A stretch of 41,031 nucleotides of DNA from Rhodanobacter sp. (GTDB taxonomy: Bacteria > Pseudomonadota > Gammaproteobacteria > Xanthomonadales > Rhodanobacteraceae): positions 1-41,031 of the forward strand of contig SCRO01000009.1 in NCBI GenBank assembly GCA_004298505.1, read 5' to 3'. The stretch's first letter is position 1. Every line of letters starts with the position of its first letter. Below the pieces are notes generated by a model that had not been told where the DNA came from, did not search any database, and saw nothing but the letters and a program-made list of their open reading frames with translations. Positions 13,600-34,526 of this stretch are shown piece by piece. A program made the translations under genes and the position numbers.

Positions 13600-13784
13600 G
13601 AAAAATCAAATAGCCGTCTATAAGGCTGTGTGCGATGGCGTCGCCCGCGAGGCCCGGAGCGGGCTGCCGGCCTGCCATGCATCACCTGAGCAAGTGGCCG
13701 CGGTCGGGTCGGACGCCGTGGCCACGCATCGATCTCGTCATCGGGCGGGGGCTCTGCTAGCGTGCAGGATCGGGAAACCTGTAC

Positions 13785-13791
13785 GAGGGGG
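13785..13791 (+). promoter_or_regulatory. Ribosome binding site deciding the TTG start of the hybrid kinase
   Basis: GAGGGGG lies 9 bases before TTG at 13801. No ribosome site precedes the in-frame GTG at 13762, so the shorter TTG start is preferred; it also places the first membrane helix at the N terminus. Confidence 0.55.
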
Positions 13792-13800
13792 AAGCTTGAG

Positions 13801-16800
13801 TTGATTCATGGCTGGCTGCTGTTGCTGGTATCGCTGCTGTATGTCGGGGTGTTGTTCGTGGTGGCCTATGCAGGCGACCGGCGGCCCCTGTACCCGCGGC
13901 AGCCACGGCTGCGGCCGATCGTCTACAGTCTGGCGTTGGCGGTGTACTGCTCGTCGTGGACGTTCTATGGCGCGGTCGGCACAGCTGCGCGCGGTGGGCT
14001 GGCCTATCTGCCGATCTACCTGGGACCGATCCTGCTGTTCGTATTCGGTTTCGGCTTCCTGCGCCGGCTGCTGCAGGTAGTGCGCCAGCGCAAGATCACC
14101 TCGATTGCCGACTTCATTGCCGCGCGTTTTGGCAAGTCGCACGGTCTGGCGGCCCTGGTGGCGGTGATCGCGGTGGTTGCGGTGGTGCCTTACATCGCTC
14201 TTCAATTCAAGGCGGTGGCGCTGTCCTATGGCGTACTCGGCGGGGGCGTGCCCGACGCGATCCGGACCGGCGGCGTGGACAGCGCGCTATGGTGCGCGGT
14301 GCTGCTGGCAGCGTTTGCGATCCTGTTCGGCACGCGCAGTATCGATGCGACCGAGCATCATCACGGCCTGATGCTGGCGATCGCCCTGGAATCGCTGATC
14401 AAGCTGCTGGTGTTCGTGACGATCGCCGCCTACGCACTGTGGCATGGGCCTGGCCTGCTCGACACGGTGCAACGTCCGTTGCGCGAATTCAGCCACGCCT
14501 TGCCACCGGATTTCCTGACCCAGACCATCCTGGCCCTGTGCGCCATGTTCTGCCTGCCGCGGCAATTCCAGGTCGGCCTGGTCGAATGCGAAGATGCCGG
14601 CGATCTCTGGCGTGCGCGCTGGCTGTTGCCACTGTATATGGTTATCGTCAGTCTGGCGGTGCTGCCGATCGTGGCCGCAGGCGCCCATCTGCCGCTGGTC
14701 AGCGGTAGCAACGCCGACGCATGGGTGCTCACCCTGCCGCTGGCGCACGGCGACACTGGGGTAGCGCTGCTGGCCTTCATCGGCGGATTCTCGGCCGCCA
14801 CCGGGATGGTGATCGTGGCCTCGGTGGCGCTCTCGACGATGATCAGCAACGACCTGGTCATGCCCGCCCTGTTGCGTATCCGGCGCTTGCGGCTGGAGCA
14901 GCGCAGTGATCTCTCGCGCCTGGTGCTCAGCGTGCGCCGCGTCGCCATTGTCGCGCTGGCATTGATGGCCTACGTCTACTACCGCGTCGCCGCCAACGCG
15001 GAAAACCTGGCCGCGATCGGCTTGCTGGCCTTTGCCGCGGTGGCACAGTTCGCGCCGGCACTGATCGCGGCGTTGTACTGGCGCGGCGCCAGCCGGCGGG
15101 GCGTGGCGGCGGGTCTGCTCGGCGGCTTCGCGGTGTGGATTTACACCCTGCTGCTGCCGGCCCTGATTCACTCGGACGGTTGGCTGCGCGAGGGTCCGTT
15201 TGGCTGGGATTGGCTGCGCCCGCAGGCGCTGTTCCACTTGAGCGGGTGGGATCCACTCACGCATGGCACGTTCTGGTCGCTGCTGGTCAACGTCGGTTGC
15301 CTGGTGTATTTCTCGCTGCGTTTCCGCCCCAGCCTGGAGGAACGCCTGCATGCGGCGATGTTTGTCGACGCCGACCGGATCAAACGCAGTGGTGCCGGCG
15401 ATTGGCGCGGGCGGGTGGTAGTCGCCGACCTGCATACCATCGCCGAGCGCATCGTAGGCGCACGTGGCAGCGCGCGCGCCTTCGAGGAGTACGCGCGGCA
15501 CCGTGGTCGAGCGCTGTTGCCGGGTGAGGCCGCCGATCACGCCTTGATCCAGCATACCGAACGGCTGCTCGCCTCGGCGGTGGGTGCCGCCAATGCGCGT
15601 CGCATCCTGATCAGCGCACTGTCCGGCAGTGGCCTGGGCCTGGCCGAATCGATGGCCCTGCTGGATGAGGCATCGCAGGAGCTGCGCTTCAACCGCGAGC
15701 TGTTGTCGACCACGCTGGAGCACGTCTCGCAGGGGATCAGCGTGGTCGACGCGGACATGTGTCTGGTGGCGTGGAACCACCGTTACCAGGAGTTGTTCGA
15801 TTACCCGGATGGCATGGTGCACGTTGGCGTGCCCGTGAGCGAACTGATTCGCCGCAATGCCGAGCTTGGGGAATGCGGTCCGGGCGAAGTAGACGATCAT
15901 GTGGCCAAACGCATCGACTACATGCGTGCTGGCTCGTCGTATATGTTCCAGCGGGTTCGCCCCAACGGTACGGTGATCGAGATGCGCGGCCGCGCGCTGC
16001 CGGGCGGCGGTTACGTCACCACGTATACCGACGTCACCGCCTACAAGCAGGCCGAGCAGGCGTTGATCGAGGTCAACGAAACGCTGGAACAGCGCGTCGA
16101 ACAACGCACCGCCGAACTTACCGAGGCGCTGTCTGCCACCGCCCAGGCAAGGCGCTCCGCGGAAACCGCGAACATATCCAAGACGCGTTTCCTGGCCGCC
16201 GCCAGCCACGACCTGCTGCAACCGTTGAATGCGGCACGGCTGTTCACCTCGGCGTTGCGCGCGCACCCGGGATTGGATCTCGAAGCCAGCGCGCTGGCCG
16301 AACGCATCGATGCCTCGTTCCACGCCGCCGAGGATCTGCTCGATGCCCTGCTCGACGTCTCGCGGCTGGATGCCGGAAGCTACCATCCGGAAGTCGGCGG
16401 CTTCGCGCTGGCCGAGTTGTTTGACTCGCTGCATGCGCAGTTCGCGGTGGTTGCCGACCAACGCGGGCTGCGCATGCGCGTGGCGCCGACCACGCTGGCC
16501 GTGCGCAGCGATCCGCAATTGCTGCGTCGGATCGTGCAGAACTTCCTGTCGAATGCCTTGCGCTACACCAGCAAGGGTCGCGTCCTGCTCGGCGCGCGGC
16601 GGGTCGCAGGGGAAGTGCGCATCGAGGTGTGGGATTCCGGCCCGGGTATTGCGGCGGAACAACGTGCGCGCATTTTCGGCGAGTTCCAGCGGCTCGACCA
16701 ACCCTCGCCGTGGGGCGAGAAGGGCCTGGGCCTGGGCCTGTCCATCTGCGACCGCCTCGCCGGCATTCTCGGCCACCGGCTCGACCTGCACTCGCGGGTC

Positions 16801-17259
16801 AACCACGGCAGCTGTTTCGCCGTGACGGTACCGCGCAGCGAGTCCGTGCCGGCGCAGCGCCAGCATGTGCAGCGCCGGGGGCTGGACAAGCAATTGCCGC
16901 TGACCGTGTTGTGTCTCGACAACGACACCGACATCCTCGATGGCATGCGCGCCCTGCTCGGCCGCTGGGGTGTGGATTGCCGTGTCGCGCAGGATGTGAC
17001 GCAGGCACGGGCAAGCCTGGCGTCAGGCGCGATCGACCTGATTCTGGCCGATTATCATCTGGGCGACGCGGTCGACGGCTTGCAGGCCATGCAGCAGCTG
17101 CGCGAGGCGCTGGGTGAATTGCCCCCGGTCGTGCTGATCACCGCCGACGGTAGCACTGCATTGAAGCAGCGCGCGCGCGTTCTCGGTTATCCGGTGCTGC
17201 ACAAACCGCTGCGACCGGCGGCACTGCGTGCCTTGATGACGGCGCTGCTGCGCCGCTGA
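13801..17259 (+). CDS. CrbS-like hybrid sensor histidine kinase with sodium/solute-symporter sensor domain
   Basis: This is a 1152-residue membrane kinase (TTG start; GTG at 13762 would add 13 residues). Residues 1 to about 510 form a multi-pass sodium:solute symporter (SSS/PutP-type) module with roughly 13 hydrophobic helices. A PAS domain follows (about 640-755, QGISVVDADMCLVAWNHRYQ), then a coiled coil. The HisKA domain has the phospho-acceptor His803 (ASHDLLQPLNAARLF). The HATPase domain has the N box (NFLSNALRYTSKG) and G boxes (DSGPGI, GLGLGLSICDRL). A C-terminal receiver has Asp1084 (LILADYHLGD). This architecture is that of CrbS/MxtR, which with CrbR/ErdR controls acetyl-CoA synthetase in Vibrio and Pseudomonas. 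The convergent neighbour is a LuxR-type regulator, 10 bases away, followed by acs. The ligand is unknown; acetate sensing or uptake-coupled sensing is an inference. Confidence 0.9.
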   Translation: MIHGWLLLLVSLLYVGVLFVVAYAGDRRPLYPRQPRLRPIVYSLALAVYCSSWTFYGAVGTAARGGLAYLPIYLGPILLFVFGFGFLRRLLQVVRQRKITSIADFIAARFGKSHGLAALVAVIAVVAVVPYIALQFKAVALSYGVLGGGVPDAIRTGGVDSALWCAVLLAAFAILFGTRSIDATEHHHGLMLAIALESLIKLLVFVTIAAYALWHGPGLLDTVQRPLREFSHALPPDFLTQTILALCAMFCLPRQFQVGLVECEDAGDLWRARWLLPLYMVIVSLAVLPIVAAGAHLPLVSGSNADAWVLTLPLAHGDTGVALLAFIGGFSAATGMVIVASVALSTMISNDLVMPALLRIRRLRLEQRSDLSRLVLSVRRVAIVALALMAYVYYRVAANAENLAAIGLLAFAAVAQFAPALIAALYWRGASRRGVAAGLLGGFAVWIYTLLLPALIHSDGWLREGPFGWDWLRPQALFHLSGWDPLTHGTFWSLLVNVGCLVYFSLRFRPSLEERLHAAMFVDADRIKRSGAGDWRGRVVVADLHTIAERIVGARGSARAFEEYARHRGRALLPGEAADHALIQHTERLLASAVGAANARRILISALSGSGLGLAESMALLDEASQELRFNRELLSTTLEHVSQGISVVDADMCLVAWNHRYQELFDYPDGMVHVGVPVSELIRRNAELGECGPGEVDDHVAKRIDYMRAGSSYMFQRVRPNGTVIEMRGRALPGGGYVTTYTDVTAYKQAEQALIEVNETLEQRVEQRTAELTEALSATAQARRSAETANISKTRFLAAASHDLLQPLNAARLFTSALRAHPGLDLEASALAERIDASFHAAEDLLDALLDVSRLDAGSYHPEVGGFALAELFDSLHAQFAVVADQRGLRMRVAPTTLAVRSDPQLLRRIVQNFLSNALRYTSKGRVLLGARRVAGEVRIEVWDSGPGIAAEQRARIFGEFQRLDQPSPWGEKGLGLGLSICDRLAGILGHRLDLHSRVNHGSCFAVTVPRSESVPAQRQHVQRRGLDKQLPLTVLCLDNDTDILDGMRALLGRWGVDCRVAQDVTQARASLASGAIDLILADYHLGDAVDGLQAMQQLREALGELPPVVLITADGSTALKQRARVLGYPVLHKPLRPAALRALMTALLRR

Positions 17260-17269
17260 GCCGGTGGCG

Positions 17270-17941
17270 TCAGTCGGCTTCCTCCGGCAACGCCGGCATG
17301 CCGTCTGGATCGACCGCCAGGTGGCTGGCGATCAAGGCAACCTGGGTGCGATTGTTGACGCCGAGCTTGCGCATGATCGCGGTCATGTGGGCCTTCACGG
17401 TGGCTTCGGACACGCTCAGGTCCCGCGCGATCTGCTTGTTCAGCAAACCCTCGGCGAGCATTGACATCACCCGAAACTGCTGTGGTGTCAGCGTGGCAAC
17501 ATGCACGGCGGCGGCCGCTTCGTCGGGTTTGAGTTCGCCGGTCTGCCCGAGCATGGTCGGTGGCAGCCAGACATCGCCGTCGAGCACGGCGCGGATCGCC
17601 GCCGCGATGTCGGCCCCGCCGCTCGATTTGGGGATATAGGCCGAGGCACCATGCGCCAGCGCGCGGCGCGCCACCTGCGCCTCCTCATGCCCGGACACCA
17701 CGATCGTCGGCAGCCCCGGATACTGGCCGCGGATATGCGCCAGCGCGGAGTAGCCATGGGCGTCGGGCATGTGCAGGTCGAGCAGCAGCAGCTCGGCGTC
17801 GGGAAATTGCTCGATCAGGCCGAGCAAAGCGTGCACGCTGTCGGCGCTGTGTACCCGCGCCTGCGGCAAGGTGGCCAGCACCGCGCGCTGCAGTGCGTCG
17901 CGGAACAGCGGGTGGTCGTCGGCGATCAGGATGTCGGGCAT
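17270..17941 (-). CDS. CrbR/ErdR-like response regulator, LuxR (NarL) type
   Basis: This is a 223-residue regulator. The start at 17941 (MPDILIADDHPLFRDAL) places the receiver domain at the N terminus; longer frames translate an intergenic repeat and are rejected. The receiver has the acidic pair Asp8/Asp9, phospho-acceptor Asp55 (LLLLDLHMPDA) and Lys105 (AYIPKSS). The LuxR helix-turn-helix covers about 152-208 (TLTPQQFRVMSMLAEG, NKQIARDLSVSEATVKAHM). It is tail to tail with the hybrid kinase, its likely partner. It lies downstream of acs on the same strand, 98 bases away across an inverted heptamer repeat. CrbR-type regulators activate acs in other gammaproteobacteria; direct control here is inferred from context. 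Confidence 0.9.
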   Translation of the reverse strand: MPDILIADDHPLFRDALQRAVLATLPQARVHSADSVHALLGLIEQFPDAELLLLDLHMPDAHGYSALAHIRGQYPGLPTIVVSGHEEAQVARRALAHGASAYIPKSSGGADIAAAIRAVLDGDVWLPPTMLGQTGELKPDEAAAAVHVATLTPQQFRVMSMLAEGLLNKQIARDLSVSEATVKAHMTAIMRKLGVNNRTQVALIASHLAVDPDGMPALPEEAD

Positions 17942-17951
17942 GCGCGAAGGC

Positions 17952-18031
17952 GGGATTCGGAATGGGAGATTCGGGATTCGGGATTCGGACGTGGCGTTCT
18001 TGCGAATCCCCAATCCCCAATCCCGAATCCC
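17952..18031. repeat. Inverted array of heptamer repeats between acs and the response regulator gene
   Basis: Five 7-base units, mostly GGGATTC (exact at 17952, 17973 and 17980, GAGATTC at 17966, one degenerate at 17959), are followed after a 17-base spacer by four units on the other strand: GAATCCC, CAATCCC, CAATCCC, GAATCCC (18004-18031). The two halves can pair to a long imperfect hairpin. Arrays of this kind are familiar as intergenic repeats in Xanthomonadales. Lying in the 98-base gap between two same-strand genes, it could attenuate read-through from acs or protect the acs mRNA 3' end. Confidence 0.85.
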
Positions 18032-18039
18032 GTTGAGGA

Positions 18040-19980
<1,941 letters not shown>

Positions 19981-20063
19981 GGCGAACTCCTGTGGGCTCA
20001 TCACGGAATAGTGGCAAGGACATCATGCGTCGCATCGTCGCGGTGCGTCCGCTGACGTCTCCG

Positions 20064-20092
20064 AGTGTAGCCGCATCGCTTTGAAAGTCCGC
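20064..20092 (-). promoter_or_regulatory. Candidate acs promoter
   Basis: On the minus strand TACACT (20064-20069) is a fair -10. The hexamer 17 bases upstream (GCGGAC region) is a poor -35, as expected for an activator-dependent promoter. The predicted start is near 20057, leaving a ~77-base leader before the acs ATG. Confidence 0.35.
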
Positions 20093-20102
20093 AGCGACCC
20101 TG

Positions 20103-20135
20103 CTCGACATTGGTCGAAGTTCGACCATGGTCGAA
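20103..20135. promoter_or_regulatory. Tandem 16-bp palindromes (candidate operator) in the acs/porin divergent region
   Basis: TTCGACCATGGTCGAA at 20120-20135 is a perfect 16-bp palindrome. One base upstream lies CTCGACATTGGTCGAA at 20103-20118, matching it at 13 of 16 positions. The half-sites alternate in direction with a centre-to-centre spacing of 17 bases. The pair is centred about 60-70 bases upstream of the predicted acs start, a usual activator position. The binding protein is unknown; the adjacent LuxR-type regulator is the first candidate. Confidence 0.7.
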
Positions 20136-20196
20136 TAGCGGTCCGCAGTGCAGCATGGCCACACTCGCTACGCGTTTCTAGCCTGGGGAGTCATCT

Positions 20197-21576
20197 ATGA
20201 GCAGCCAACTTTTTCGTGGACACCGGACAATTGCACTGGGGGTGGCCTGCGCGCTTGCCCTACCGCTTGCGGCGCAAGCGCAAGACAGCACGCATGAGCA
20301 GCAGCTCGAGCAGCGGGTGGATCAGCTGCAACAACAGCTGGATGAACTGAAGCAAGTGGTGCAGGAGCAGAAGGCGGCGGCAGCGACGGCGGCAAAGGCC
20401 GCGCCGCAGAATGTCGCGGCCGCGCCGGCCAAGCCGGTTTTCACGAGTGCGCCCGGCGTGTCGGTCGCGTTGCACGGCTTCATCAGCGCCACGGCATTTA
20501 GTCAAGACAAGAGCTTCTATTTTGGTAACGGCCAGTTCGCCGAGTTTCCATTGCCGGGCTCCAGCGGCAGATTGAGCGGCGTAGATGTACGCAATACGCG
20601 TTTCTGGCTCGATTTCAGTGGCGCCAAGTTTGCCGGCGACTGGACCGGCGGCGGTCGCATCGAGATGGACTTCTTCGGTGGCTTCAACGGTACCGGCCCC
20701 TTCAGCCAGCAGCAGGCCACGCCGCGTCTGCGGCAGGCTTATATGGATCTGGACAATGCTGACACCGGAACCAAGATTCGCCTGGGTCAGCAGTGGGAAT
20801 TGATGTTCCCGATCGACAATGGACCGTCGTCGTTGTCGCACATCGCGTTTCCCCTGGGCTTCGGTACCGGCATGGTCGGCTGGCGTTTCCCAGGCGTCGT
20901 GGTGATGCAGGATCTCAATCACGGCTCGGCCGGACCCCAATGGCGTCTGGACCTGGGTGCCTTCGAGGGCAGCTGGAATGGGCCCGGCGACAATGTCAAT
21001 TACCTGACCGCCGGCAGCACGGGCTTCCGCCCGCAGCTTGAAGCTCGCCTGCATGTGCAGGACGGCAAGACCTGGCTGGCCTATATCGCCGCGCACTACA
21101 GCCAGGTCGATCTGCGCGGGGTTGGCGCCACGGTGGTAGCGCCGATCAAGGACAAAGTCGAGAGCGTCGGCTACGAAGTGGGCGGCCAATGGAAGCCGGG
21201 CGCATTCACCCTCAAGGGTTTGGTATACCGCGGCAAGGGCTTGGGCGAGATTTTCGGCGACCTGGTGCAGTTTGGCGACATCCAGGACACCGGCGGCTAT
21301 GCGCAGGTCGGCTACAGCTTCACGCCCCACTGGAGCGCCAACCTGTTCTACGGGATGAGCAAGCCCGACCAGCATGATGTGATTGCCTGGCTTGGCCACG
21401 GCTCAGTCGGCCGCCTCGAGAGTCGGCAGTCGGCGTTGCAGCTGCAATACGCCAGCGGCGCCTATGATCTCGGCATCGAATGGATGCACGCCAAGCTCGA
21501 CAGCACCAGCAATGGGGTGGATCGCAAGAGTACCAGCGGCAATCAAGTGAGCGTGAGCGCGTTGTATCACTTTTGA
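20197..21576 (+). CDS. DcaP-like trimeric outer-membrane porin
   Basis: This is a 459-residue outer-membrane protein. It has a Sec signal peptide (cleavage after PLAAQAQ near residue 29), then a short coiled coil (about 30-65, EQQLEQRVDQLQQQLDELKQVVQEQ) and an Ala-rich linker. A beta-barrel of alternating strands follows from about residue 90 and ends in the terminal phenylalanine (SALYHF) required for barrel assembly. The layout is that of DcaP-like porins, which pass organic acids and other small anionic solutes. GGGGAG lies 7 bases before the ATG. It is divergent from acs and 268 bases upstream of an ABC importer binding-protein gene, suggesting that it supplies the same substrate across the outer membrane; that is an inference. 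Confidence 0.85.
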   Translation: MSSQLFRGHRTIALGVACALALPLAAQAQDSTHEQQLEQRVDQLQQQLDELKQVVQEQKAAAATAAKAAPQNVAAAPAKPVFTSAPGVSVALHGFISATAFSQDKSFYFGNGQFAEFPLPGSSGRLSGVDVRNTRFWLDFSGAKFAGDWTGGGRIEMDFFGGFNGTGPFSQQQATPRLRQAYMDLDNADTGTKIRLGQQWELMFPIDNGPSSLSHIAFPLGFGTGMVGWRFPGVVVMQDLNHGSAGPQWRLDLGAFEGSWNGPGDNVNYLTAGSTGFRPQLEARLHVQDGKTWLAYIAAHYSQVDLRGVGATVVAPIKDKVESVGYEVGGQWKPGAFTLKGLVYRGKGLGEIFGDLVQFGDIQDTGGYAQVGYSFTPHWSANLFYGMSKPDQHDVIAWLGHGSVGRLESRQSALQLQYASGAYDLGIEWMHAKLDSTSNGVDRKSTSGNQVSVSALYHF

Positions 21577-21844
21577 CGCGGGCGGGGGCCCCAGGGTGAT
21601 GCGTTCCGACTCGGCGCTGGATAAGGGAGCAGATGGGCAACGCGAAGGCGTCGCCGGACTTTCGTGACGCGAGACCCCCGGCCCGAGCCGGTCGCGTGCC
21701 GACTGCCGGTTACAGGGCCTGATCGACGGCAGCCGGCTCGGCGACAAGGAGATGAGGGTGAGTTCGGCACTCGCTGGTATGCCCGCACATGGCGGTACGA
21801 GACAGGCGCTCGTGCCATTCCTTGGTCAGTTGAGGAGCTCTGTC

Positions 21845-23266
21845 ATGAAAAAGTATCTATCCAGGTGCATCGTTGGCGCGCTGACGCTGGCGCTGTCAAC
21901 GGTCGCGCTGGCCGCAGCAACACCGGGTCTGCAGCCCACGCCCGAACAGTTTCCGTCCAAGTTCGGCAGCATGACGTTCCCGACTACCTTTCCTGCCGGC
22001 ACCACACTCACCATTACCCAGTGGAGCCATTTCGTGCCGCGCTACGACAAGTGGTTCGACCAATACGCGCAGACATGGGGCAAGAAGAACCACGTCAAGG
22101 TCACCGTGCAGCACATCAACCTGGCAGATCTGGGCTCGACCCTGGCCGCATCGATCGCGGCCGGCAAGGGTTCGACCCTGTTTGAGACGGTCTCCACGCC
22201 GGCGTCCTTCGTCGAGGGCTTGCAGGACCTGACTGACGTGAACCACGCGGCGGATCAAGCCTTCGGCAAACAGGAGGACGTCTGTGCCAGCCAGGCCTAT
22301 CTCCCGATCAAGCACATCTGGTACGGCTATTGCCACGCCTGGGTGCCCGACCCCGGCGACTACCGGGTGTCATTGTGGAAGGCTGCCGGCTATCCGAACG
22401 GCCCGCGCAGCTATGACGATCTCTACGTCGGCGGCGTGAAGATCTTCGAGAAGACCGGCATTCCGGTGGGCGTAGGCATGTCGCCGGAGCTGGACTCCGA
22501 GTTTTATGCGCGCTCGCTGATCTGGTCTTTTGGTGGTTCGTTGTTCGACAAGTGCGGCAACGTGACACTTGATTCACCCCAGGTGCTCAAGGCGGTCGAG
22601 TTCCAGGCGAAGCTTTTCAAGAATGCGCAAACACCGGAAGTCTTCGCGTGGAATGCCGCCTCGAACAACCAGGCCTTCATCTCCGGCCAGGCGTCCTACA
22701 TCCAGAACTCGATCTCGTTCTACCGCACTGGGCAGCAGACGAGTCCGAAGATCACCGCGGACACGGGGTTCAGCCCCGGTCTGAAGGGGCCGGATGGCCA
22801 GGTCCACCAGACCTCGCATGTGTGGTTGATCTACACGTTGCCGAAGTACGTGACGGACAAGCAGCAGGTGCTGGCCGCCAAGAAGTTTTTGCTGGACCTC
22901 ACGGCAAATGCCAGCTGGGGTACCTACGAAAGCCAGTTGTATGACTTCCCGGCGCACAGCAAGGCCGTGCCGCAGCTATGGGCCAAGGGCGGCTGGCTGG
23001 ATCGCGATCCGTTCGGTTCGGTGCCGCCCAACAAGCTCGAGGTGCTGCGCAACGCGGTGGAGTGGACCGCCTGGCCAGGCTATCCCGGCTCCGCCAACCC
23101 CGCGGTGAGTGAGGTGTACAACACGCATCTGCTCTCCACGATGATGTCGCAAGCCGCGCGCGGTCAGAAGACGCCGGCCCAGGCGGTGCAGGCCACCGCA
23201 GCGCAGCTTGGCAGCATCGTCGCCAAATGGAAGGCCAAGGGCTACATCGGCTGTCCAGCCCAGTGA
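21845..23266 (+). CDS. ABC transporter substrate-binding protein, family 1 (CUT1-type)
   Basis: This is a 473-residue periplasmic binding protein. The ATG at 21845 is supported by GAGGAG 8 bases upstream and a Sec signal peptide (MKKYLSRCIVGALTLALSTVALAA); there is no lipobox cysteine. The fold looks like the extracellular solute-binding family 1: an N-terminal lobe starting TLTITQWSHFVPRYDKWFDQYAQTW, then a PRSYDDLY hinge region. The mature protein has four cysteines (DVCASQ, YGYCHAW, FDKCGN, YIGCPAQ), allowing two disulfides, which is uncommon for this family. Aromatic residues (WSHF, WYGYCHAW, QNSISFY) may line the site. The substrate is not readable from sequence; family members bind oligosaccharides, glycerol phosphate and related polyols. 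It starts a four-gene operon. Confidence 0.88.
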   Translation: MKKYLSRCIVGALTLALSTVALAAATPGLQPTPEQFPSKFGSMTFPTTFPAGTTLTITQWSHFVPRYDKWFDQYAQTWGKKNHVKVTVQHINLADLGSTLAASIAAGKGSTLFETVSTPASFVEGLQDLTDVNHAADQAFGKQEDVCASQAYLPIKHIWYGYCHAWVPDPGDYRVSLWKAAGYPNGPRSYDDLYVGGVKIFEKTGIPVGVGMSPELDSEFYARSLIWSFGGSLFDKCGNVTLDSPQVLKAVEFQAKLFKNAQTPEVFAWNAASNNQAFISGQASYIQNSISFYRTGQQTSPKITADTGFSPGLKGPDGQVHQTSHVWLIYTLPKYVTDKQQVLAAKKFLLDLTANASWGTYESQLYDFPAHSKAVPQLWAKGGWLDRDPFGSVPPNKLEVLRNAVEWTAWPGYPGSANPAVSEVYNTHLLSTMMSQAARGQKTPAQAVQATAAQLGSIVAKWKAKGYIGCPAQ

Positions 23267-23292
23267 AGCATTGCACCAGGCGGGAGTGATTC

Positions 23293-24324
23293 ATGGCGAC
23301 GCTTGAGCTGCGCGGACTGAAAAAGTATTACGGCAATACCCATGCCGTGGATGGCATTGATGCAGCCATTGCGGAAGGCGAGTTTCTGGCCATCCTCGGA
23401 CCGTCCGGCTGCGGCAAGAGCACCACCATGCGCATGATCGCGGGTCTGGAGGCGCCCAGTGCAGGCGAGGTGCTGATCGGTGGCAAGTCGGTCACGCACC
23501 TCCCGCCACGCGCACGCAATGTGTCAATGGTGTTCCAGAGCTACGCGCTCTATCCGCATATGTCCGTGCTGGAGAACATCGCCTTCCCGCTGAAGGCGCG
23601 CGGCGTACCCCGGACCGAGCGCGATGCCAAGATCAAATGGGCGAGCGCCATGCTGGGCATCGAGCCGCTGCTGCAGCGCAAACCGGGAAGATTGTCCGGT
23701 GGCGAGAAGCAGAAGGTCGCGCTGGCCCGTTCACTGGTACGCGACCCGGCGTTGTTCATCTTCGACGAGCCGCTCAGTTCACTGGACGCCCAGGTCCGCA
23801 CCATGGCGCGCAGTGAACTGCGCCTGTTGCACGACCGCACCGGTGTCACCACGGTGTATGTCACCCACGACCAGATCGAGGCACTGGGCATGGGCGATCG
23901 CATCGCGATCATGCAACACGGTCGCGTGCGTCAATTGGGGACGCCGCAGCAACTGTATGACCAGCCGGCCGACACCTTTGTGGCCGGATTCCTGGGCTCG
24001 CCGCCGATGAACCTGCTGCAGCGCGGCGGCCGCATCATCGGCATCCGGCCCGAACATCTGTTGCCGGCACCGCCGGGCACCACGGATGACCAATCCTTCG
24101 AGCTGCAGGTGCGCATCAAGCGATTGGAGTTCCTGGGCACGGACTGGCTGATTTACGGTCTGCTTGAAACCGGAGCGCAGGGGCAAAAGGTACTCTCGAA
24201 AGTATCTCCGGGCATCGCCGCCACGCTGCAGGAAGGCGCACTGCAAACCTTTCGTGTCGAGCGTATGTGTCTGCGCTTCTTCGACCCGGCCACGGGTTCG
24301 CGAGTCGACGATGGCCCGCGCTGA
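23293..24324 (+). CDS. ABC transporter ATP-binding protein, MalK/UgpC-like
   Basis: This 343-residue ATPase drives the importer. It has Walker A GPSGCGKST (36-44), Q-loop VFQSYALYPHMSV, ABC signature LSGGEKQKVALARSL, Walker B LFIFDEPLSSLD and switch histidine VTHDQ. The C-terminal region from about 240 is a TOBE-like regulatory domain (GIRPEHLLP), as in MalK/UgpC importers. The signature has Glu-Lys-Gln-Lys where most relatives have Gln-Arg-Gln-Arg. It starts 26 bases after the binding-protein gene and its last 14 bases overlap the first permease gene. Confidence 0.94.
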   Translation: MATLELRGLKKYYGNTHAVDGIDAAIAEGEFLAILGPSGCGKSTTMRMIAGLEAPSAGEVLIGGKSVTHLPPRARNVSMVFQSYALYPHMSVLENIAFPLKARGVPRTERDAKIKWASAMLGIEPLLQRKPGRLSGGEKQKVALARSLVRDPALFIFDEPLSSLDAQVRTMARSELRLLHDRTGVTTVYVTHDQIEALGMGDRIAIMQHGRVRQLGTPQQLYDQPADTFVAGFLGSPPMNLLQRGGRIIGIRPEHLLPAPPGTTDDQSFELQVRIKRLEFLGTDWLIYGLLETGAQGQKVLSKVSPGIAATLQEGALQTFRVERMCLRFFDPATGSRVDDGPR

Positions 24325-25246
24325 CACCGAGGTGCGCGTCAGCCTGGGCGATCGTGAAGGTCTGCTCGGTACGCTCATGCTCGCGCCGGCGTTCCTCTAT
24401 ATCGCCGCGCTGGTGGGCATTCCGTTCTTTCTCGCCATTGCGCTCAGCCTGAGCAGCGCCACGATTGGCGATCCGCACATTCACGGTTTTGTCGGCCTCG
24501 CCAACTTTGCCCACGCCATGCATGAATCGGCATTTCCCATTGCGTTGCGCAACAGCATCATCGTCACCTGCGCCACCTTGATCCTGACCCTGGTGCTGGC
24601 CACCGCCGAGTCCGAATTGCTGGTCCGTGATTTCCGCGGCAAGTGGTTGTGGCAGATCCTGCTGATCCTACCGTGGGCGATGCCGGTATCGCTCGCGGCG
24701 GTGGACTGGTTGTGGCTGCTTGACTCGGAGTTCAGCCCGCTCGACTGGCTGCTGCGGCAAGCACACTTGCTGGGTCCGGGTACGCCATGGGGGCCGGCAA
24801 ATCATCTTTATTATTACGGCAGGGAATGGCTGGGCCTGGGCGCGATCACGATGATCAACGTGTGGCGCTTGCTGCCACTGGCCACGATCATCGTGCTGGC
24901 CGGGCGCACCGCGATTCCGCGCGAGATCTTCGAGCAGGCGCAAGTTGATGGCGCGGGCTTCTTCCGCGTCCTGTTCCGTATCACCATCCCCGCCTTGCTA
25001 CCCCTGCTGGTGGTGGCCGGCATGTTCACGGCGCTGCTGGTGTTTGGCGACATGACCGTGGTTGCCTTGACCACGCGCGGTGGACCGGGCTATGCCACGC
25101 AACTGTTGCCGTACTGGGCTTATCTCAAGGGCATCGAGGGTGGCGCGCTCAGCGAGGGCGCCGCGGTGGCGCTGTTCATGTTTCCGGTATTGCTGGCCGG
25201 TGCCGTCCTGGCGCTGCGCATGGCTTACCGGGCCGACTCGAATTGA
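24311..25246 (+). CDS. ABC transporter permease 1 (MalF/UgpA-like)
   Basis: This is a 311-residue inner-membrane permease. The ATG at 24311 overlaps the ATPase stop by 14 bases, typical of translational coupling; the much longer upstream frame is a read-through of the ATPase in another frame and is rejected. Six or so membrane helices are visible (LAPAFLYIAALVGIPFFLAIA, NSIIVTCATLILTLVLA, ILLILPWAMPVSLAAVDW, and others). The EAA loop that docks on the ATPase is EQAQVDGAGFFRVLFRITIP near 210-230. It pairs with the next gene to form the channel. Confidence 0.93.
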   Translation: MARADTEVRVSLGDREGLLGTLMLAPAFLYIAALVGIPFFLAIALSLSSATIGDPHIHGFVGLANFAHAMHESAFPIALRNSIIVTCATLILTLVLATAESELLVRDFRGKWLWQILLILPWAMPVSLAAVDWLWLLDSEFSPLDWLLRQAHLLGPGTPWGPANHLYYYGREWLGLGAITMINVWRLLPLATIIVLAGRTAIPREIFEQAQVDGAGFFRVLFRITIPALLPLLVVAGMFTALLVFGDMTVVALTTRGGPGYATQLLPYWAYLKGIEGGALSEGAAVALFMFPVLLAGAVLALRMAYRADSN

Positions 25247-25257
25247 GCGGGCTCGCC

Positions 25258-26079
25258 ATGAAGAAAATTCTGCGCCGTTCGAGCTTCTACCTGGGCTTGC
25301 TGCTGTTCACGATGTTTGCCGTCTTCCCGGTGATCTGGATGGTGATCACCGCGTTCAAGCAAGACGGCGATCTGTACAACGTGGCCAACAACCCGTTCAT
25401 CTACAACCTGCCGCCGACCCTCAAGCACATCACCTTCCTGTTCACCCACAGCAGTTTTCCGACCTTCCTGCGCAACTCCGCCTTCATTGGTGTGGTCGTG
25501 GTCATCATCACGCTGCTGCTGGCGGTTCCCGCGGCGTACAGCCTGTCGCGCCTGGTCGGCCATTGGGGCGAGCGTTCCGGTATCGCGGTGTTCCTCGTCT
25601 ACCTCATTCCGCCGACCTTGCTGTTCATCCCGCTGTACCAGATCGTCAGCTTCCTGCGCGCCACCAACACCGTGTGGGCGCTGATCCTCGTCTACCCCAC
25701 GATCACGGTACCGTTTTGCACCTGGCTGCTGCTGGGTTTCTTCAAATCCATGCCGCGTGAGCTGGAGGAATCAGCGCTGATTGACGGCTGCAGCCGATGG
25801 CAGTCGTTCCTGCGCATCGCCCTGCCGCTGGCCGCACCGGGTATCGCCACATGCATCGTGTTCGCCTTCGCGCTGTCGATCAGCGACTACATCTACGCCG
25901 CGGTCTTCGTGAGCTCCACCGCGGCACGTACGGTAAGTGCCGGCGTGCCCACCGAACTCATCCGCGGGGATATCTATTTCTGGCAATCGTTGATGGCGGC
26001 GGCGGCGATCGTCTCGATTCCGCTGGCGGTAGCTTACGGGTTGTTGTTCGACCGCCTGGTGAAAGGCTTCCAGAGCTGA
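25258..26079 (+). CDS. ABC transporter permease 2 (MalG/UgpE-like)
   Basis: This is a 273-residue second permease with about six membrane helices (FYLGLLLFTMFAVFPVIWMV at the N terminus, VVVVIITLLLAVPAAYSLS, VFLVYLIPPTLLFIPLYQIV). Its EAA loop is ELEESALIDGCSRWQSFLRI near 165-185. The ATG at 25258 is 11 bases after the permease 1 stop; a TTG at 25243 would overlap that stop and add five residues. It completes a binding protein-ATPase-permease-permease importer. No terminator is evident after it. Confidence 0.93.
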   Translation: MKKILRRSSFYLGLLLFTMFAVFPVIWMVITAFKQDGDLYNVANNPFIYNLPPTLKHITFLFTHSSFPTFLRNSAFIGVVVVIITLLLAVPAAYSLSRLVGHWGERSGIAVFLVYLIPPTLLFIPLYQIVSFLRATNTVWALILVYPTITVPFCTWLLLGFFKSMPRELEESALIDGCSRWQSFLRIALPLAAPGIATCIVFAFALSISDYIYAAVFVSSTAARTVSAGVPTELIRGDIYFWQSLMAAAAIVSIPLAVAYGLLFDRLVKGFQS

Positions 26080-26140
26080 CGCGGGCACGGTTGCGCCGAA
26101 TACGCATCACACCGCACGAGAGCGCAACGACAAAGTCATC

Positions 26141-26207
26141 TTCATACCTCGGCAGGAGGCTTCACGACTCAGGTAACGCACGCCAGACAGCTATTTTTCA
26201 TACCTCG
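26141..26207. promoter_or_regulatory. 11-bp direct repeat upstream of satP (candidate activator sites)
   Basis: TTCATACCTCG occurs at 26141-26151 and again at 26197-26207, a spacing of 56 bases, in the 216-base gap before the satP ATG. Both copies are exact. They differ from the palindromes upstream of acs, so a different regulator, or a looser version of the same site, would be needed. Confidence 0.5.
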
Positions 26208-26295
26208 ATGCAACACCCGAACGCATACGCTTGATTTGTATTTGCAGGTGTATGTCCACTACCGATGCGCTGAGCATCTTTGACAGGAGAACACC

Positions 26296-26880
26296 ATGGC
26301 AGAAGATATCAAACAGGCCAACCCGGCGGCGCTGGGGCTGGTCGGCTTCGGACTCACCACGGTTATTTTGAGCTTGATCAACGCGGGCGTGTTGCCCAAG
26401 GGCGGTGAACCGGTAGTGCTGCCGCTCGCCTTTGCATTTGGCGGGTTGATTCAAATGCTGGCAGGGCTGCTTGAAGTAAAGGCCGGCAACACGTTCGGCA
26501 TGGTGGCGTTTCTCAGTTACGGCGCATTCTGGTGGTGGTTCGCGCTGCTGATCCTGCTCGGCAGTCACGGTGTCCTGGATTTGTCGCAGGCGGGCAGCAC
26601 GATTGCCGTGACGCTGATTGGCTGGGGCGTGTTCACGCTGTACATGTGGGTGGCAACGTTCAAGGCCAGCAAGGCGCTGTGGTGGATCTTTCTCACGCTG
26701 TGGGTGACGTTCTTCCTGCTCGGTTTCGGTGATCTGCTCGGCATGCCCGGCCTGAGCATAGCCGGTGGCTGGTTGGGACTGATCTGCGGCCTGCTCGCGA
26801 TGTACACGAGTTTCGCCATCGTGACCAATATCAGCTTTGACCGGACCGTTCTGCCGGTAGGTGCGCCGTTTGTGGGTTGA
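26296..26880 (+). CDS. satP: Acetate uptake transporter, SatP/YaaH (AceTr) family
   Basis: This 194-residue inner-membrane protein imports acetate (and succinate) with protons. Six membrane helices are visible. The family motif appears as NPAALGLVGFG (9-19; usual form NPAPLGL), and the central FGG/YGAFW region as FGGLIQMLAGLLEVKAGNTFGMVAFLSYGAFWWW. AGGAG lies 7 bases before the ATG. It lies between the ABC importer and the second acetyl-CoA synthetase (143 bases before it), so import and activation of acetate are likely expressed together. Confidence 0.94.
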   Translation: MAEDIKQANPAALGLVGFGLTTVILSLINAGVLPKGGEPVVLPLAFAFGGLIQMLAGLLEVKAGNTFGMVAFLSYGAFWWWFALLILLGSHGVLDLSQAGSTIAVTLIGWGVFTLYMWVATFKASKALWWIFLTLWVTFFLLGFGDLLGMPGLSIAGGWLGLICGLLAMYTSFAIVTNISFDRTVLPVGAPFVG

Positions 26881-27023
26881 GCGAATGCAGACAGGTGCAG
26901 CGTGGGTTCCCTGGATACGGCAATGGGGACCGTCAAGCTCCACGTCATGCCAGTAGCGCGATGGTGTCGCCGGTAGGTAGCGCCGCCGCCGAAAATGATG
27001 ATTCAGGTTAGGAGATAACGACC

Positions 27024-29150
27024 ATGACAGACAAAAGCAACGTCGACGAACACACCGAGGCCAGCGAAGCGCAAATCGCGGTGCACTGGAAGGAAGAGCA
27101 GTATTTTCAGCCTTCGCAGACTTTCATCGAACAGGCGAACATGACCGATCCGGATATTCGCCAAAAATTCGGGGAGGCGAATTTTCCGGACTGCTTCAAG
27201 GACTATGCGGACATGTTGACCTGGTCAACGCCGTATACCAAGGTGCTGGACACCAGCAAGCCGCCGTTCTGGAAATGGTTTGTGGGCGGCAAACTCAATG
27301 CCAGCTACAACTGTATCGATCGTCATCTCGCGCAGTATCGCAACAAGGCCGCATTCATCTTCGTCGGCGAACCGGAACAAGACCCGCCGGTCGCGATGAC
27401 GTATCAGGAGCTGTATGTCCGGGTCAACGAGATGGCGGCGCTGTTACGCGATTTCTGCGGGCTCAAGGCCGGCGATCGGGTAACGCTGCATCTGCCGATG
27501 ACGCTTGATCTGCCCATCACGATGCTCGCCTGCACGCGCCTGGGCGTCATTCACTCGCAGGTATTTGGCGGGTTTTCCGGTCAATCCTGCGGCTCACGCA
27601 TCCAGGACTCGGGTAGCCACGTGCTGATCTCCACCGATGCGTATTGGCGTTCGGGCAAGTTGATCGATCACAAGGTGAATGCCGACATTGCGGTGCAGAC
27701 AGCGGAAAAGCTGGGCCAGCATGTCGACAAGGTGCTCATCTGGCAGCGCTATCCGGGCAAGTACAGCTCGCCGACGCCGATGGTCGAGGGGCGCGACTTC
27801 TTCGTCAACGAGCTGCTGCAGAAGTATGCGGGCAAGCAGGTTGAACCGGTACCGATGGATGCGGAAGCGCCCCTGTTCCTGATGTACTCCAGCGGCACCA
27901 CCGGCCAACCCAAGGGCTGTCAGCACCGCACCGGCGGGTACCTTGCCTATGTGGCCGGCACGTCGAAGTACATCCAGGATATCCACCCGACCGACACCTA
28001 CTGGTGCATGGCCGACATCGGCTGGATCACCGGGCATTCGTACATCGTCTATGGGCCGTTGCTGCTGGCAGCGACCAGTGTCATCTACGAAGGTGTCCCC
28101 ACCTATCCGGATGTGCGCCGCCCGTGGCGCATTGCCGAGCGCCTGGGCGTCAATATCTTCCACACCTCGCCGACGGCGGTCCGTGCGTTACGCCGGGCCG
28201 GCCCCGAGGAGCCGCGCAAGTGCGGCCACCACTTCAAGCACATGACGACGGTCGGCGAACCGATCGAGCCGAGCGCGTGGCGTTGGTACTACGACGAGGT
28301 CGGCAAGCGCGAAGCGGTGATCGTGGACACCTGGTGGCAGACCGAAAATGGCGGATTCCTGTGCAGCACCATACCTGCGCTTGATGCCATGAAGCCGGGC
28401 AGCGCCGGACCCGCCATGCCGGGAATCTACCCGGTCATCTTCGACGACAATGACGAGGAACTCGTCAAGGGTTCCGGCCAGGCCGGCAATATGTGCATAC
28501 GCAATCCCTGGCCGGGGATCATGCAGACGATCTGGGGCGACGACCAGCGCTTCGTCGACACCTACTACAAGCGCTATTGCAAGGATCCCCAAAGCAAGGA
28601 CTGGCGCGATTGGCCCTATATGTCCGGCGATGGGGCGATGCAGGCGGCGGATGGCTACTACCGCATTTTGGGCCGGCTTGACGACGTCATCAACGTCTCC
28701 GGCCACCGCCTGGGCACCAAGGAAATCGAGTCGGCATGCCTGACGGTGCCGGAAGTGGCGGAGGCGGCAGTAGTGCCTGTCATGGATGAAATCAGGGGGC
28801 GCGTGCCTGACGTGTATGTCTCCCTCAATGCCGGCTCAACGGGCATGCCCGGGTCGGGGGCCTCCGCTGATGTGGTCGATCGGGTGATCAAGGCGTGCGA
28901 GGACATGATCGGCAAGATTGCACGGCCGCGCCAAGTTTACATCGTGCCGGATATGCCCAAGACCCGGTCTGGCAAGATCATGCGTCGGGTGCTCGGTGCC
29001 ATCTCCAACGGGCTCGCTGTTGGCGATGTGACAACGTTGGCGAACGGGACTGTCGTAGAGGAGATTCGGGTGATGGTGCAAGGCAAGCATGCAGTGGCCT
29101 CCACCGATGCGATACCCGAGGACATCGCCAAGTTCGGGCAACACGACTGA
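27024..29150 (+). CDS. Acetyl-CoA synthetase (AMP-forming), copy 2, long form
   Basis: This is a 708-residue acyl-CoA ligase of the acetyl-CoA synthetase group, about 60 residues longer than copy 1 because of an N-terminal extension, extra central residues and a longer tail. Motifs: P-loop YSSGTTGQPKG near 292, DTWWQTENGG near 437 with the acetate-pocket Trp, [16 protein letters not shown] near 550, and [11 protein letters not shown] with catalytic Lys651. The P-loop differs from copy 1 ([11 protein letters not shown]). TTAGGAG lies 7-13 bases before the ATG. Acetate or propionate is the probable substrate; a distinct short acyl acid is possible. A strong hairpin follows the stop. Confidence 0.92.
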   Translation: MTDKSNVDEHTEASEAQIAVHWKEEQYFQPSQTFIEQANMTDPDIRQKFGEANFPDCFKDYADMLTWSTPYTKVLDTSKPPFWKWFVGGKLNASYNCIDRHLAQYRNKAAFIFVGEPEQDPPVAMTYQELYVRVNEMAALLRDFCGLKAGDRVTLHLPMTLDLPITMLACTRLGVIHSQVFGGFSGQSCGSRIQDSGSHVLISTDAYWRSGKLIDHKVNADIAVQTAEKLGQHVDKVLIWQRYPGKYSSPTPMVEGRDFFVNELLQKYAGKQVEPVPMDAEAPLFLMYSSGTTGQPKGCQHRTGGYLAYVAGTSKYIQDIHPTDTYWCMADIGWITGHSYIVYGPLLLAATSVIYEGVPTYPDVRRPWRIAERLGVNIFHTSPTAVRALRRAGPEEPRKCGHHFKHMTTVGEPIEPSAWRWYYDEVGKREAVIVDTWWQTENGGFLCSTIPALDAMKPGSAGPAMPGIYPVIFDDNDEELVKGSGQAGNMCIRNPWPGIMQTIWGDDQRFVDTYYKRYCKDPQSKDWRDWPYMSGDGAMQAADGYYRILGRLDDVINVSGHRLGTKEIESACLTVPEVAEAAVVPVMDEIRGRVPDVYVSLNAGSTGMPGSGASADVVDRVIKACEDMIGKIARPRQVYIVPDMPKTRSGKIMRRVLGAISNGLAVGDVTTLANGTVVEEIRVMVQGKHAVASTDAIPEDIAKFGQHD

Positions 29151-29227
29151 CCGGCCGGTCGGCTGGTGGGTGGTTGAAAAACCATCTGCCAGTGCTGGAC
29201 TCGCGTCGGTCGTCAGAGTGGTACGCG

Positions 29228-29260
29228 GTTTGCAGCGCACGCGGCGCGTGCGCTGCAAAC
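29228..29260. repeat. Perfect 14-bp inverted repeat downstream of acetyl-CoA synthetase 2
   Basis: GTTTGCAGCGCACG (29228-29241) and its exact complement CGTGCGCTGCAAAC (29247-29260) flank a 5-base loop. No T-run follows, so it is not a standard intrinsic terminator. It may limit 3' decay of the acs2 transcript, terminate with Rho, or bind a dimeric protein acting on the next gene. Confidence 0.85.
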
Positions 29261-29293: not shown

Positions 29294-29545
29294 ATGGGTT
29301 TGTCCATGGAACAACAAGTACTGGAAGAGGCATTGCGCCGCGTTGCGGAGGCGACGCGCGCGGCGTGCGTGCGCGCGGCGGCGGACGGCTACGAACGGGC
29401 GGGGCTCGGCGGTTTGTGCGAGGCGGGTCGTTGGGAGATGGCGCTCGATTCAATCCAGTCGCTCGATGTGAAGGCCATCATTGGCGAGCTCTCGAAGGTA
29501 TCGAGTGAAGCATCCGGCGCGGACGAACGAGATCGCGCCAGCTGA
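29294..29545 (+). CDS. Small conserved hypothetical protein
   Basis: This is a possible 83-residue soluble protein starting MGLSMEQQVLEEALRR; an ATG at 29306 is an alternative start and neither has a good ribosome site. It is predicted mostly helical, with a central AAADGYERAGLGGLCEAGRWEMALDSIQSLD block. I recall similar AYEDAGxxGLCxEGRWE small proteins in other proteobacteria, but no function is known to me. Codon use is like the neighbours (GC-rich third positions). It follows the hairpin after acetyl-CoA synthetase 2 and is convergent with the next gene. Confidence 0.6.
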   Translation: MGLSMEQQVLEEALRRVAEATRAACVRAAADGYERAGLGGLCEAGRWEMALDSIQSLDVKAIIGELSKVSSEASGADERDRAS

Positions 29546-33039: not shown

Positions 33040-33087
33040 TGCCTCGCGAAGGTTGATGCGCTGCAGCTGGCGGAGCTTGGGCTTCAT
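33040..33087 (-). pseudogene. 5' remnant of a gene once downstream of hsdS
   Basis: The hsdS stop overlaps an ATG as ATGA (33084-33087). From it the frame reads MKPKLRQLQRINLREAS and then runs out into the antisense of the radical SAM gene. LRQLQRINLRE resembles the N terminus of DUF4268-type proteins often found in type I restriction operons (from memory of such starts). The rest of the gene is gone, so this marks the deletion edge of the island. The exact edge (about 33030-33045) is uncertain. Confidence 0.5.
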
Positions 33088-34526
33088 GGCGTGGCTTCCT
33101 CGATCAGGGTTTGCGCTTCGGGCAGGCGCAGCTTGCCGGAGATCAGACGGGGGAGCAGGGTGTCGCGGAGCTCTGAAAGAGGTCGCGCGGTCTCAACGTT
33201 CGTCAAAATTCGTTCAAGCAGTGGCTCGACATGCCTATTGAAGGTATCACCAAGCGAATCTGGCGGAATGGGGATTGGATAGCCCGAAACATCCTTCCAA
33301 CTTGACCGCGGCATCTTTGCGCCGTTCGAAAGACGCGCGGCGTAGTCAATCAGCGCATCACTTGAGGCATGCATCAACAAAAAACTCTGAAAGGCGGCAC
33401 GCGTGGGACGCAGCACGAGTATGTCTGTCGAGCAAATTCCGCGAGAAGGGGCGAGACCAACCTTGTGAAAGGTTGGCCTGAGTTTCCCGAAAAGGATGTC
33501 CGATCGCTCGAACCAGAACTTTCCGCTCACCAAGCCCTGAGCGGTTCCGTGGTCTCCTAACGCAATGGATTTGCGTGGTAAGTGCTCTAGGCCGAAATAA
33601 GGCGTGGCAGGATCAACCTGCTCGGGCTTGGCTTGTTTTCTTGGGTTGCCGGATACCGTACCGAGGCCTCCCGTGTGCCAACCCTGCGGAATCGGGCCAA
33701 GCGGGGAATTTTCGAAGGAGTCGGGAAACAACGCGGCGGTGGCGGCGTCCATGCCGTCGGGCTTGCGGCCTTCAGCTTTCGCGTGCACCGGATCGAAGTC
33801 GATGAACCACGATTTGAACAGGGCCTGCGCGATGGCTTCAAGGGTGATGTTGGTTTGACGCAGGAGTGAAATTCTTGCTTCGATGGTTCCCAACACCGCT
33901 GCAATTTCAGTCTGCTGCGATAGGCAGGGAAAAGTAACCGCCATCCCACGCTGATCGCGCAAACTGACGTAGTCAGCCATGTCAGTTTGGCCTTTCAGGT
34001 AACCAATTTGATTCAAGAAGTCGCCACTCTGCATCCAGAAATAGAGAAAGCTTGGAAGAAGTGTCTGATGGTCAGTTGAGCGCCAGTAGCAGAGTTGTGG
34101 AGAGTAGACAAATTGCTCAGTGTCCTCGGTGACGAACGCAAAGCGCCCAACTGTCCCTTTTGAAGTAAAGACAACATCACCTGGTTGGCTGAGCTTTGCC
34201 CCAACTCGGGCGATATTGGTAGACGGGAAGCGATCTGCTTGCCCGAAATGAAAGCCGTCGTTGATGTTCGCGGCACGAGCGAATGGCATACCTTCATTGC
34301 CGAGTTCAGAATTCTTTGCACGGTAACCGTCTCCGATTTCGAGAATGCCCGTATCAATAAGTTCTTGAGCGCGATAGGTGCCAGGCTCCAGCGTTGTACG
34401 TGCTTTATCGTCAAGCATGTAGCGAGGAATTAGCTCTGCGACGCCCTTGGAAGTAGGAGGATGAGTAGCCTGAACATTAGGATTCGCAGGCTTGCTCCAA
34501 CCCGCGGACTTTCGCTCAGACGCCAT
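33084..34526 (-). CDS. hsdS: Type I restriction-modification specificity subunit HsdS
   Basis: This is a 480-residue DNA sequence-recognition subunit. It has two target-recognition domains (about 1-200 and 280-430), each followed by a conserved helical spacer: SQQTEIAAVLGTIEARISLLRQTN...ALFKSWFIDFDPVHAKAEGR near 205-260 and VEPLLERILTNVETARPLSELRDTLLPRLISGKL at the C terminus. The frame is intact and of normal length. The start overlaps the end of the hsdM remnant by 11 bases and the stop overlaps an ATG. Base composition is visibly less GC-rich than the flanking genes, consistent with horizontal gain. With hsdM broken and no hsdR in the window, it may have no partner here. Confidence 0.93.
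   Translation of the reverse strand: MASERKSAGWSKPANPNVQATHPPTSKGVAELIPRYMLDDKARTTLEPGTYRAQELIDTGILEIGDGYRAKNSELGNEGMPFARAANINDGFHFGQADRFPSTNIARVGAKLSQPGDVVFTSKGTVGRFAFVTEDTEQFVYSPQLCYWRSTDHQTLLPSFLYFWMQSGDFLNQIGYLKGQTDMADYVSLRDQRGMAVTFPCLSQQTEIAAVLGTIEARISLLRQTNITLEAIAQALFKSWFIDFDPVHAKAEGRKPDGMDAATAALFPDSFENSPLGPIPQGWHTGGLGTVSGNPRKQAKPEQVDPATPYFGLEHLPRKSIALGDHGTAQGLVSGKFWFERSDILFGKLRPTFHKVGLAPSRGICSTDILVLRPTRAAFQSFLLMHASSDALIDYAARLSNGAKMPRSSWKDVSGYPIPIPPDSLGDTFNRHVEPLLERILTNVETARPLSELRDTLLPRLISGKLRLPEAQTLIEEATP

Follow-up and report, generated by a model that had tools for sequence, protein, structure and literature searches.

A CrbS/CrbR-type acetate locus of Rhodanobacter with a putatively refitted transport slot

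The acetate switch CrbS/CrbR (MxtR/ErdR) of Vibrio and Pseudomonas comprises a hybrid kinase with a symporter domain, a LuxR-type regulator and acs, located behind the ACTU element (PMC5715377, PMC8402216). CrbR requires this inverted repeat, reported ahead of acs in four of five Xanthomonas (PMC5715377). Pseudomonas uses actP, found at separate loci, and the available parts of these papers deal mainly with acs and actP, besides a small number of accessory genes (PMC5715377, PMC8402216). The present work deals with a related locus in a stretch of 41,031 nucleotides of Rhodanobacter sp. (family Rhodanobacteraceae; assembly GCA_004298505.1, contig SCRO01000009.1, positions 1 to 41,031), referred to as the window. 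Unlike in the described regulon, the switch and acs are clustered here, and the CrbR box would act on a porin-carrier unit encoded in the opposite direction, whose carrier appears exchangeable. We consider it probable that this is a CrbS/CrbR-type acetate locus with a refitted transport slot, in which a cassette of an ABC (ATP-binding cassette) importer, satP and a second acetyl-CoA synthetase gene, acs2, stands in the carrier's place.

All ten genes named by a first-pass annotation of the window were recovered by open reading frame (ORF) and domain reading and adjoin one another, the start codons being our choice inside the ORFs. The contiguous block it described nevertheless has to be redrawn as two units on opposite strands, which diverge from about 20005-20196 and of which the one containing acs and the regulator gene lies on the minus strand. 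The ORF of the CrbS/MxtR-type hybrid kinase (13762..17259, plus strand) starts at 13762, with a possible TTG start at 13801. Pfam recognised PAS, HisKA, HATPase and receiver domains but no SSS (SSF) domain in the N-terminal half. A simple scan found 13 hydrophobic segments in the first 470 residues, and the profile of the kinase family aligned with an SSS symporter at an hhalign probability of 90.7% over 368 columns, as compared to 0.2% for a single MFS (major facilitator superfamily) control. This supports an SSS/SLC5-like membrane domain, predicted to be fused to the hybrid histidine kinase, as the first-pass annotation had proposed. The LuxR response regulator of CrbR/ErdR type (17270..17941, minus strand) is encoded downstream of acs on the same strand and has ErdR as its best family. 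It probably starts at 17941; the codons ahead of this start translate a GGGATTCGG-type repeat, and a short inverted GGGATTCGG/CCGAATCCC-type repeat is present at 17942-18040, between acs and the regulator gene. The first acetyl-CoA synthetase gene, acs (acs1; 18040..19980, minus strand), scores 1020 bits against TIGR02188 (cut-off 725). Kinase, acs and porin co-recur across genomes of the family beyond chance. Another region of the window genome (L163, contig C122:40000-56000) encodes a second CrbS-like kinase (41-43% identity) and a CrbR paralog (50%). A porin paralog (58-59%) and an ABC importer of branched-chain type are encoded there too, which makes this another porin and ABC importer set beside a CrbS-like pair.

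Two tandem CrbR boxes, at 20103..20118 and 20120..20135, the latter a perfect palindrome, lie between acs and the porin gene. With a matrix built solely from the four Pseudomonas sites printed in the available text of PMC5715377, they were the top two sites of the window, at 14.0 and 18.5 bits, respectively, and the third site reached 10.4 bits. The matrix of the later scans also includes sites from the family, and the following counts describe conservation and are no independent test: the main box was present in 27 of 30 porin loci, the window included, with a second box 15-20 bp from it in 25 porin loci. When porin genomes were sorted by whether the porin gene is divergent from acs, 59 of 65 acs-divergent genomes and 4 of the 17 others had a box scoring 16 bits or more no further than 350 bp from the porin. 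In five further acs-divergent genomes, the box is upstream of a carrier gene that precedes the porin, which brings the total to 64 of 65 and leaves G040 as the sole genome of this group in which the scan found no box. The tandem boxes bear out the acetate switch claimed by the first-pass annotation. Judged by its sequence, the locus is best classed as a CrbS/CrbR-type acetate locus, the switch itself being an ordinary representative of a known type.

The gene divergent from acs encodes a porin-like outer-membrane protein (20197..21576, plus strand), defined by family recurrence and profile searches. The DcaP identity assigned to it at first pass was abandoned, as there was no such match in Pfam (up to E 10) or NCBIfam (up to E 0.001); nothing exceeded a curated cut-off of either database, and even a profile of 16 sequences gave no meaningful match in the PDB. 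A porin of this family was detected in 83 of 147 genomes of the family, the window genome included, and the 82 others were classified by translated search. In 65 of these the porin gene is divergent from acs, and in all 65 a carrier gene adjoins it, namely, an MFS gene in 56 (downstream of the porin in 52, upstream in 4) or satP in 9 (downstream in 8, upstream in 1). Of the remaining 17 porins, not next to acs, SatP was found with ten and an SSS protein with three, and the tested carriers were absent in four; one of these 17 genomes (G020) ends in a truncated acs at a contig edge. The single SSS protein scanned passes the cut-off of the monocarboxylate permease MctP, a carrier type that is not present in the window. 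The outer- and inner-membrane transport that the first-pass annotation had assigned to the switch thus corresponds to a conserved porin-carrier unit divergent from acs. In seven of eight porin-bearing congeners, a GlsB-like gene, an acyl-CoA ligase gene or a radical SAM gene follows the unit, as they do after the cassette in the window. A similar setting is that of the porin PP_2662 of the Pseudomonas putida ped cluster, beside a short-chain alcohol pathway and with proposed upstream CrbRS control. The likeness noted is one of setting. As far as the available text of that report goes, PP_2662 belongs to an ethanol oxidation cluster and is not divergent from acs (PMC12997753).

In the genomes sampled, MFS in the slot and SatP exclude each other. 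With a threshold of E up to 1e-40, SatP was detected in 26 genomes besides the window genome, in none of the 56 with MFS in the slot versus 22 of the 26 other porin genomes. Although the split mostly follows genus, two genera contain both types: that of the window (six MFS, three SatP) and another (three MFS, six SatP). The window genome has no MFS ortholog (best match 34%). From this exchange we infer a common function of MFS and SatP in acetate uptake. A second satP of the window genome, on contig C48, lies beside prp-type genes and has its own box pair (21.1 and 10.8 bits), and in the genome of L097 a satP with 88% identity to it directly follows boxes beside acs. The C48 neighbourhood (L146, 2743-8706) contains genes read by eye as prpB/prpC-like, a fragment of the PrpD family and a CoA ligase resembling Acs (40%), which suggests a possible link of this second satP to propionate. 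The conserved unit of box, porin and carrier, and the exchange of its carrier, seem to be undescribed in the searchable literature: no title or passage was found on such a unit, or on direct control of an ABC importer by CrbR, in a search that left subscription journals mostly outside; the expression 'ACTU motif' occurs in two papers.

In the window, the slot is filled by satP and acs2 at its far end. The satP product (26296..26880, plus strand) resembles SatP/YaaH in exceeding the cut-off of the acetate uptake transporter family AceTr_1 (159.9 bits versus 50). It misses that of the Escherichia coli SatP equivalog PRK10659 (154.8 versus 297) and differs from the described proteins in being paired with a divergent acs2; it is about 51-52% identical to the other SatP of the genome. 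The 708-aa Acs2 (27024..29150, plus strand) narrowly passes TIGR02188 (728.6 bits versus 724.95), and an identity as propionyl-CoA synthetase was rejected, since the PrpE score of 494.8 is under the cut-off of 827.4. The residues that we take to form the acetate pocket of Acs are those of the Salmonella enzyme, except for one conservative change of Val to Ile. Orthologs of at least 64% identity were present in 3 of 146 other family genomes. Nine loci with at least 62% identity were compared (window, L099, L103, L104, L105, L147, L148, L149 and L144), relatives at 52-54% (L124-L127, L150-L152) being dropped. satP is adjacent to acs2 in six of the nine, the exceptions being L104, L149 and L144. 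In L103, a 25-bit box separates crbR from the gene for a 375-aa protein, which was read as an outer-membrane protein, has no Pfam match and is followed by satP and acs2. The pair stands without the importer in L103, L105, L147 and L148, and from its gene order and family scores it looks like a real acetate module. At L105 (G056:C12), the neighbours of satP-acs2 form a pair resembling CbrA/CbrB: another CrbS-like kinase (30%) and a response regulator of sigma-54 type. At L148 (G294:C28), satP-acs2 precedes a porin relative (38%), beyond which lie two genes, the scanned one of which encodes a Peripla_BP_6 binding protein, and then permease and ATPase genes read as Liv-type, so that a porin and an ABC importer of a different class again occur near satP-acs2.

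Between the porin gene and satP lie the four genes of the importer, all on the plus strand: the substrate-binding protein (SBP; 21845..23266, PF13416), a UgpC/MalK-like ATPase (23293..24324, PF00005) and two permeases (24311..25246 and 25258..26079, PF00528 each). This single run of components corresponds to CUT1 importers such as MalEFGK and UgpABCE, in agreement with the first-pass annotation. Unlike those, it stays under all listed equivalog cut-offs and has no adjoining sugar catabolic genes in the window. The ATPase scores 375.6 against UgpC (cut-off 432), the permeases are far under the NCBIfam cut-offs, the SBP has no NCBIfam match, and no component passed an equivalog cut-off with a named substrate among the matches listed. 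The nearest PDB relative of the SBP by profile is a maltose-binding protein, and the substrate of the importer is more likely to be sugar- or polyol-like than acetate.

This importer is rare. Counting the window genome each time, it was found in 2 of 147 genomes of the family (E 1e-20), 6 of 369 of the class (1e-40) and 5 of 398 of the phylum (1e-60), and a scan of genome contigs gave five importer loci, one of them a fragment. Thirteen loci were compared (window, L096, L097, L098, L099, L101, L145, L153, L154 and L286-L289), with flanks of varying length (about 1 kb upstream of the SBP gene in L098); L100, a short fragment, and L155-L157, in which the contig ends inside or just after the SBP gene, were dropped. 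As the gene calls of the analysis scripts were crude, the count over these loci was redone by translated search of the flanks, and relatives of acs, satP or the porin were near the importer only in the window and in L099. Its neighbours vary between loci, and in the genome of L101 acs and the porin gene are on a different contig from the importer. Two of these loci hint mildly at a link: L287 has a relative of the slot MFS (50%) at a distance of about 6 kb from the importer, and L288 a CrbS-like kinase (42%) at about 4 kb. At L099, a porin gene (54%) precedes the importer, which is divergent from satP-acs2, no close CrbR was found in the genome (best 33%), and a gene of the CoA-acylating methylmalonate-semialdehyde dehydrogenase family beside the importer suggests that another substrate may be handled there. 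The importer tree places L099 with a support of just 0.53, and among plasmid records there was no close SBP relative (best 35% identity). The gene-order comparison that the first-pass annotation had set beforehand as a check on importer and porin goes largely against its reading: the porin does occur with acs and a carrier in the family, and the importer with satP-acs2 in L099, but the importer was not found in 145 of 147 family genomes, which rules out its family-wide conservation, and its usual surroundings lack acs, satP and porin. Its tie to acetate would thus rest on its position here and in one other locus.

The same observations bear on the strongest alternative, that the importer is a bystander for a sugar or polyol that landed beside the porin gene with its own promoter, the acetate system consisting of the switch, acs, porin, satP and acs2. 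This is a serious possibility, though we regard it as clearly the less probable one. It would account for the rarity of the importer at all three taxonomic levels, for the 11 of 13 loci without acs, satP or porin, for the change of neighbours from locus to locus, for the lack of a CrbR box before the SBP gene and for the similarity of the SBP to a maltose-binding protein. It fits less well with L099, where the importer likewise follows a related porin beside satP-acs2, and with the position of the importer in the carrier slot of the window, ahead of which no strong terminator was found.

For the refitted slot, the following course of events is proposed. CrbS, with its symporter-like sensor domain, would activate CrbR, presumably by phosphorylation, and CrbR would bind the two tandem boxes and switch on acs-crbR in one direction and the transport unit in the other. 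In relatives, this unit consists of the porin and one inner-membrane carrier, MFS or SatP. In the window, the carrier would have been swapped for the cassette, perhaps acquired horizontally, in which SatP would take up and Acs2 activate acetate, and which would add a rare, separately mobile CUT1-like importer. The whole cassette would be read through from the porin promoter; since no box precedes the SBP, satP and acs2 genes, their control by CrbR needs this read-through. A single transcript from the porin gene to acs2 is plausible from the layout: no terminator-like site on the plus strand was found in the gaps before SBP, satP and acs2, the two larger internal gaps when folded were no more structured than shuffles, and two strong hairpins just 3' of acs2 (29153..29260, plus strand; z -4.86) may mark the end of the unit, although they show no clear U-tract and could be repeats. 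A promoter scan returned no site anywhere in the window and hence says little.

Several points weigh against this interpretation. The window scan detected no separate CrbR box before SBP, satP or acs2, and the gaps of 268, 216 and 143 bp before these genes leave room for other promoters. Weak sites ahead of the SBP gene, in L096 at 12.8 bits and a distance of about 0.5 kb, and in L101 at 9.1 bits (P 0.017), were considered unconvincing, nine regions having been tested. Codon usage and composition give no clear foreign signal for the cassette, and no repeats marking its ends were found. The occurrence of the importer with satP-acs2 in L099 could mean a real functional tie. Although ErdR was the best of 66 families for the regulator, its score of 234.3 bits is under the curated cut-off of 390, and the Fisher values for the exclusion of MFS and SatP (3e-16 in porin genomes, 8e-7 in all 146) are neither of them corrected for phylogeny. 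The family boxes, too, were scored with a matrix made partly from those same boxes. In a search of the genome for the pattern TCGACNNNNGTCGA, eight exact matches were obtained, two in the window, one before the second satP and five elsewhere; four of these five were examined, three being inside ORFs and one intergenic. When one mismatch was allowed, 179 sites were obtained versus 125 for the reversed control, which is not much commoner. Because of this small excess and the exact sites inside ORFs, the box is informative in its position and not for genome-wide search. Two CrbR-box-like sites of the window genome (L159, contig C96, at 992 and 1129; 15.5 and 13.1 bits) share an intergenic region; the adjoining gene, which we read as encoding a TrmB-like regulator, may be another target.

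It is doubtful that an ATP-driven importer was recruited to the exchangeable slot of the CrbR regulon. It would then be the first ABC importer controlled by the acetate switch, and its cargo, entering via the same porin, would be either a short carboxylate or a compound that yields acetate. The idea of the first-pass annotation, that the importer brings in a compound releasing acetate in the cell, which Acs and Acs2 then collect, appears unlikely. The importer position shared by the window and L099, the presence of two acetyl-CoA synthetases and the porin shared by the unit would agree with it; however, no gene for an esterase, a deacetylase or sugar catabolism was recognised in the block, four loci have satP-acs2 but not the importer, the dehydrogenase gene of L099 suggests a different substrate there, and nothing found points to an acetate-releasing one. 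Direct transport of acetate or a different short carboxylate by the importer, which would then provide ATP-driven uptake in place of MFS, SatP or MctP, is very improbable. The importer does fill the position that MFS or SatP takes in other genomes, and MctP after three porins that are not adjacent to acs. Its components, however, are of CUT1 type, the closest relatives of its SBP bind sugars, two SatP genes are already present in the genome, and the literature search gave no title on an acetate ABC importer.

Beyond the cassette, a 79-aa ORF (29306..29545, plus strand) without Pfam match is also present at two other acs2 loci, in L103 (9528-9680) just after acs2 (67%) and in L104 (2365-2511) about 4 kb from it (49%). 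Genes of a Type I restriction-modification system (specificity subunit and part of the methylase) occupy a stretch of lower G+C content at 33084-35491. An Rfam scan of the window gave no matches.

In this locus family, the acetate switch gains a porin in the outer membrane and, paired with it, a carrier that is exchangeable. Roles in acetate metabolism become testable for this unassigned porin family and for an MFS carrier of MHS type, which in no sampled genome was found together with SatP. The window represents a slot that appears to have been refitted with another transporter class, and an ABC importer in this slot seems to be new. If the importer does answer to CrbR, acetate sensing would also govern the uptake of a second nutrient.

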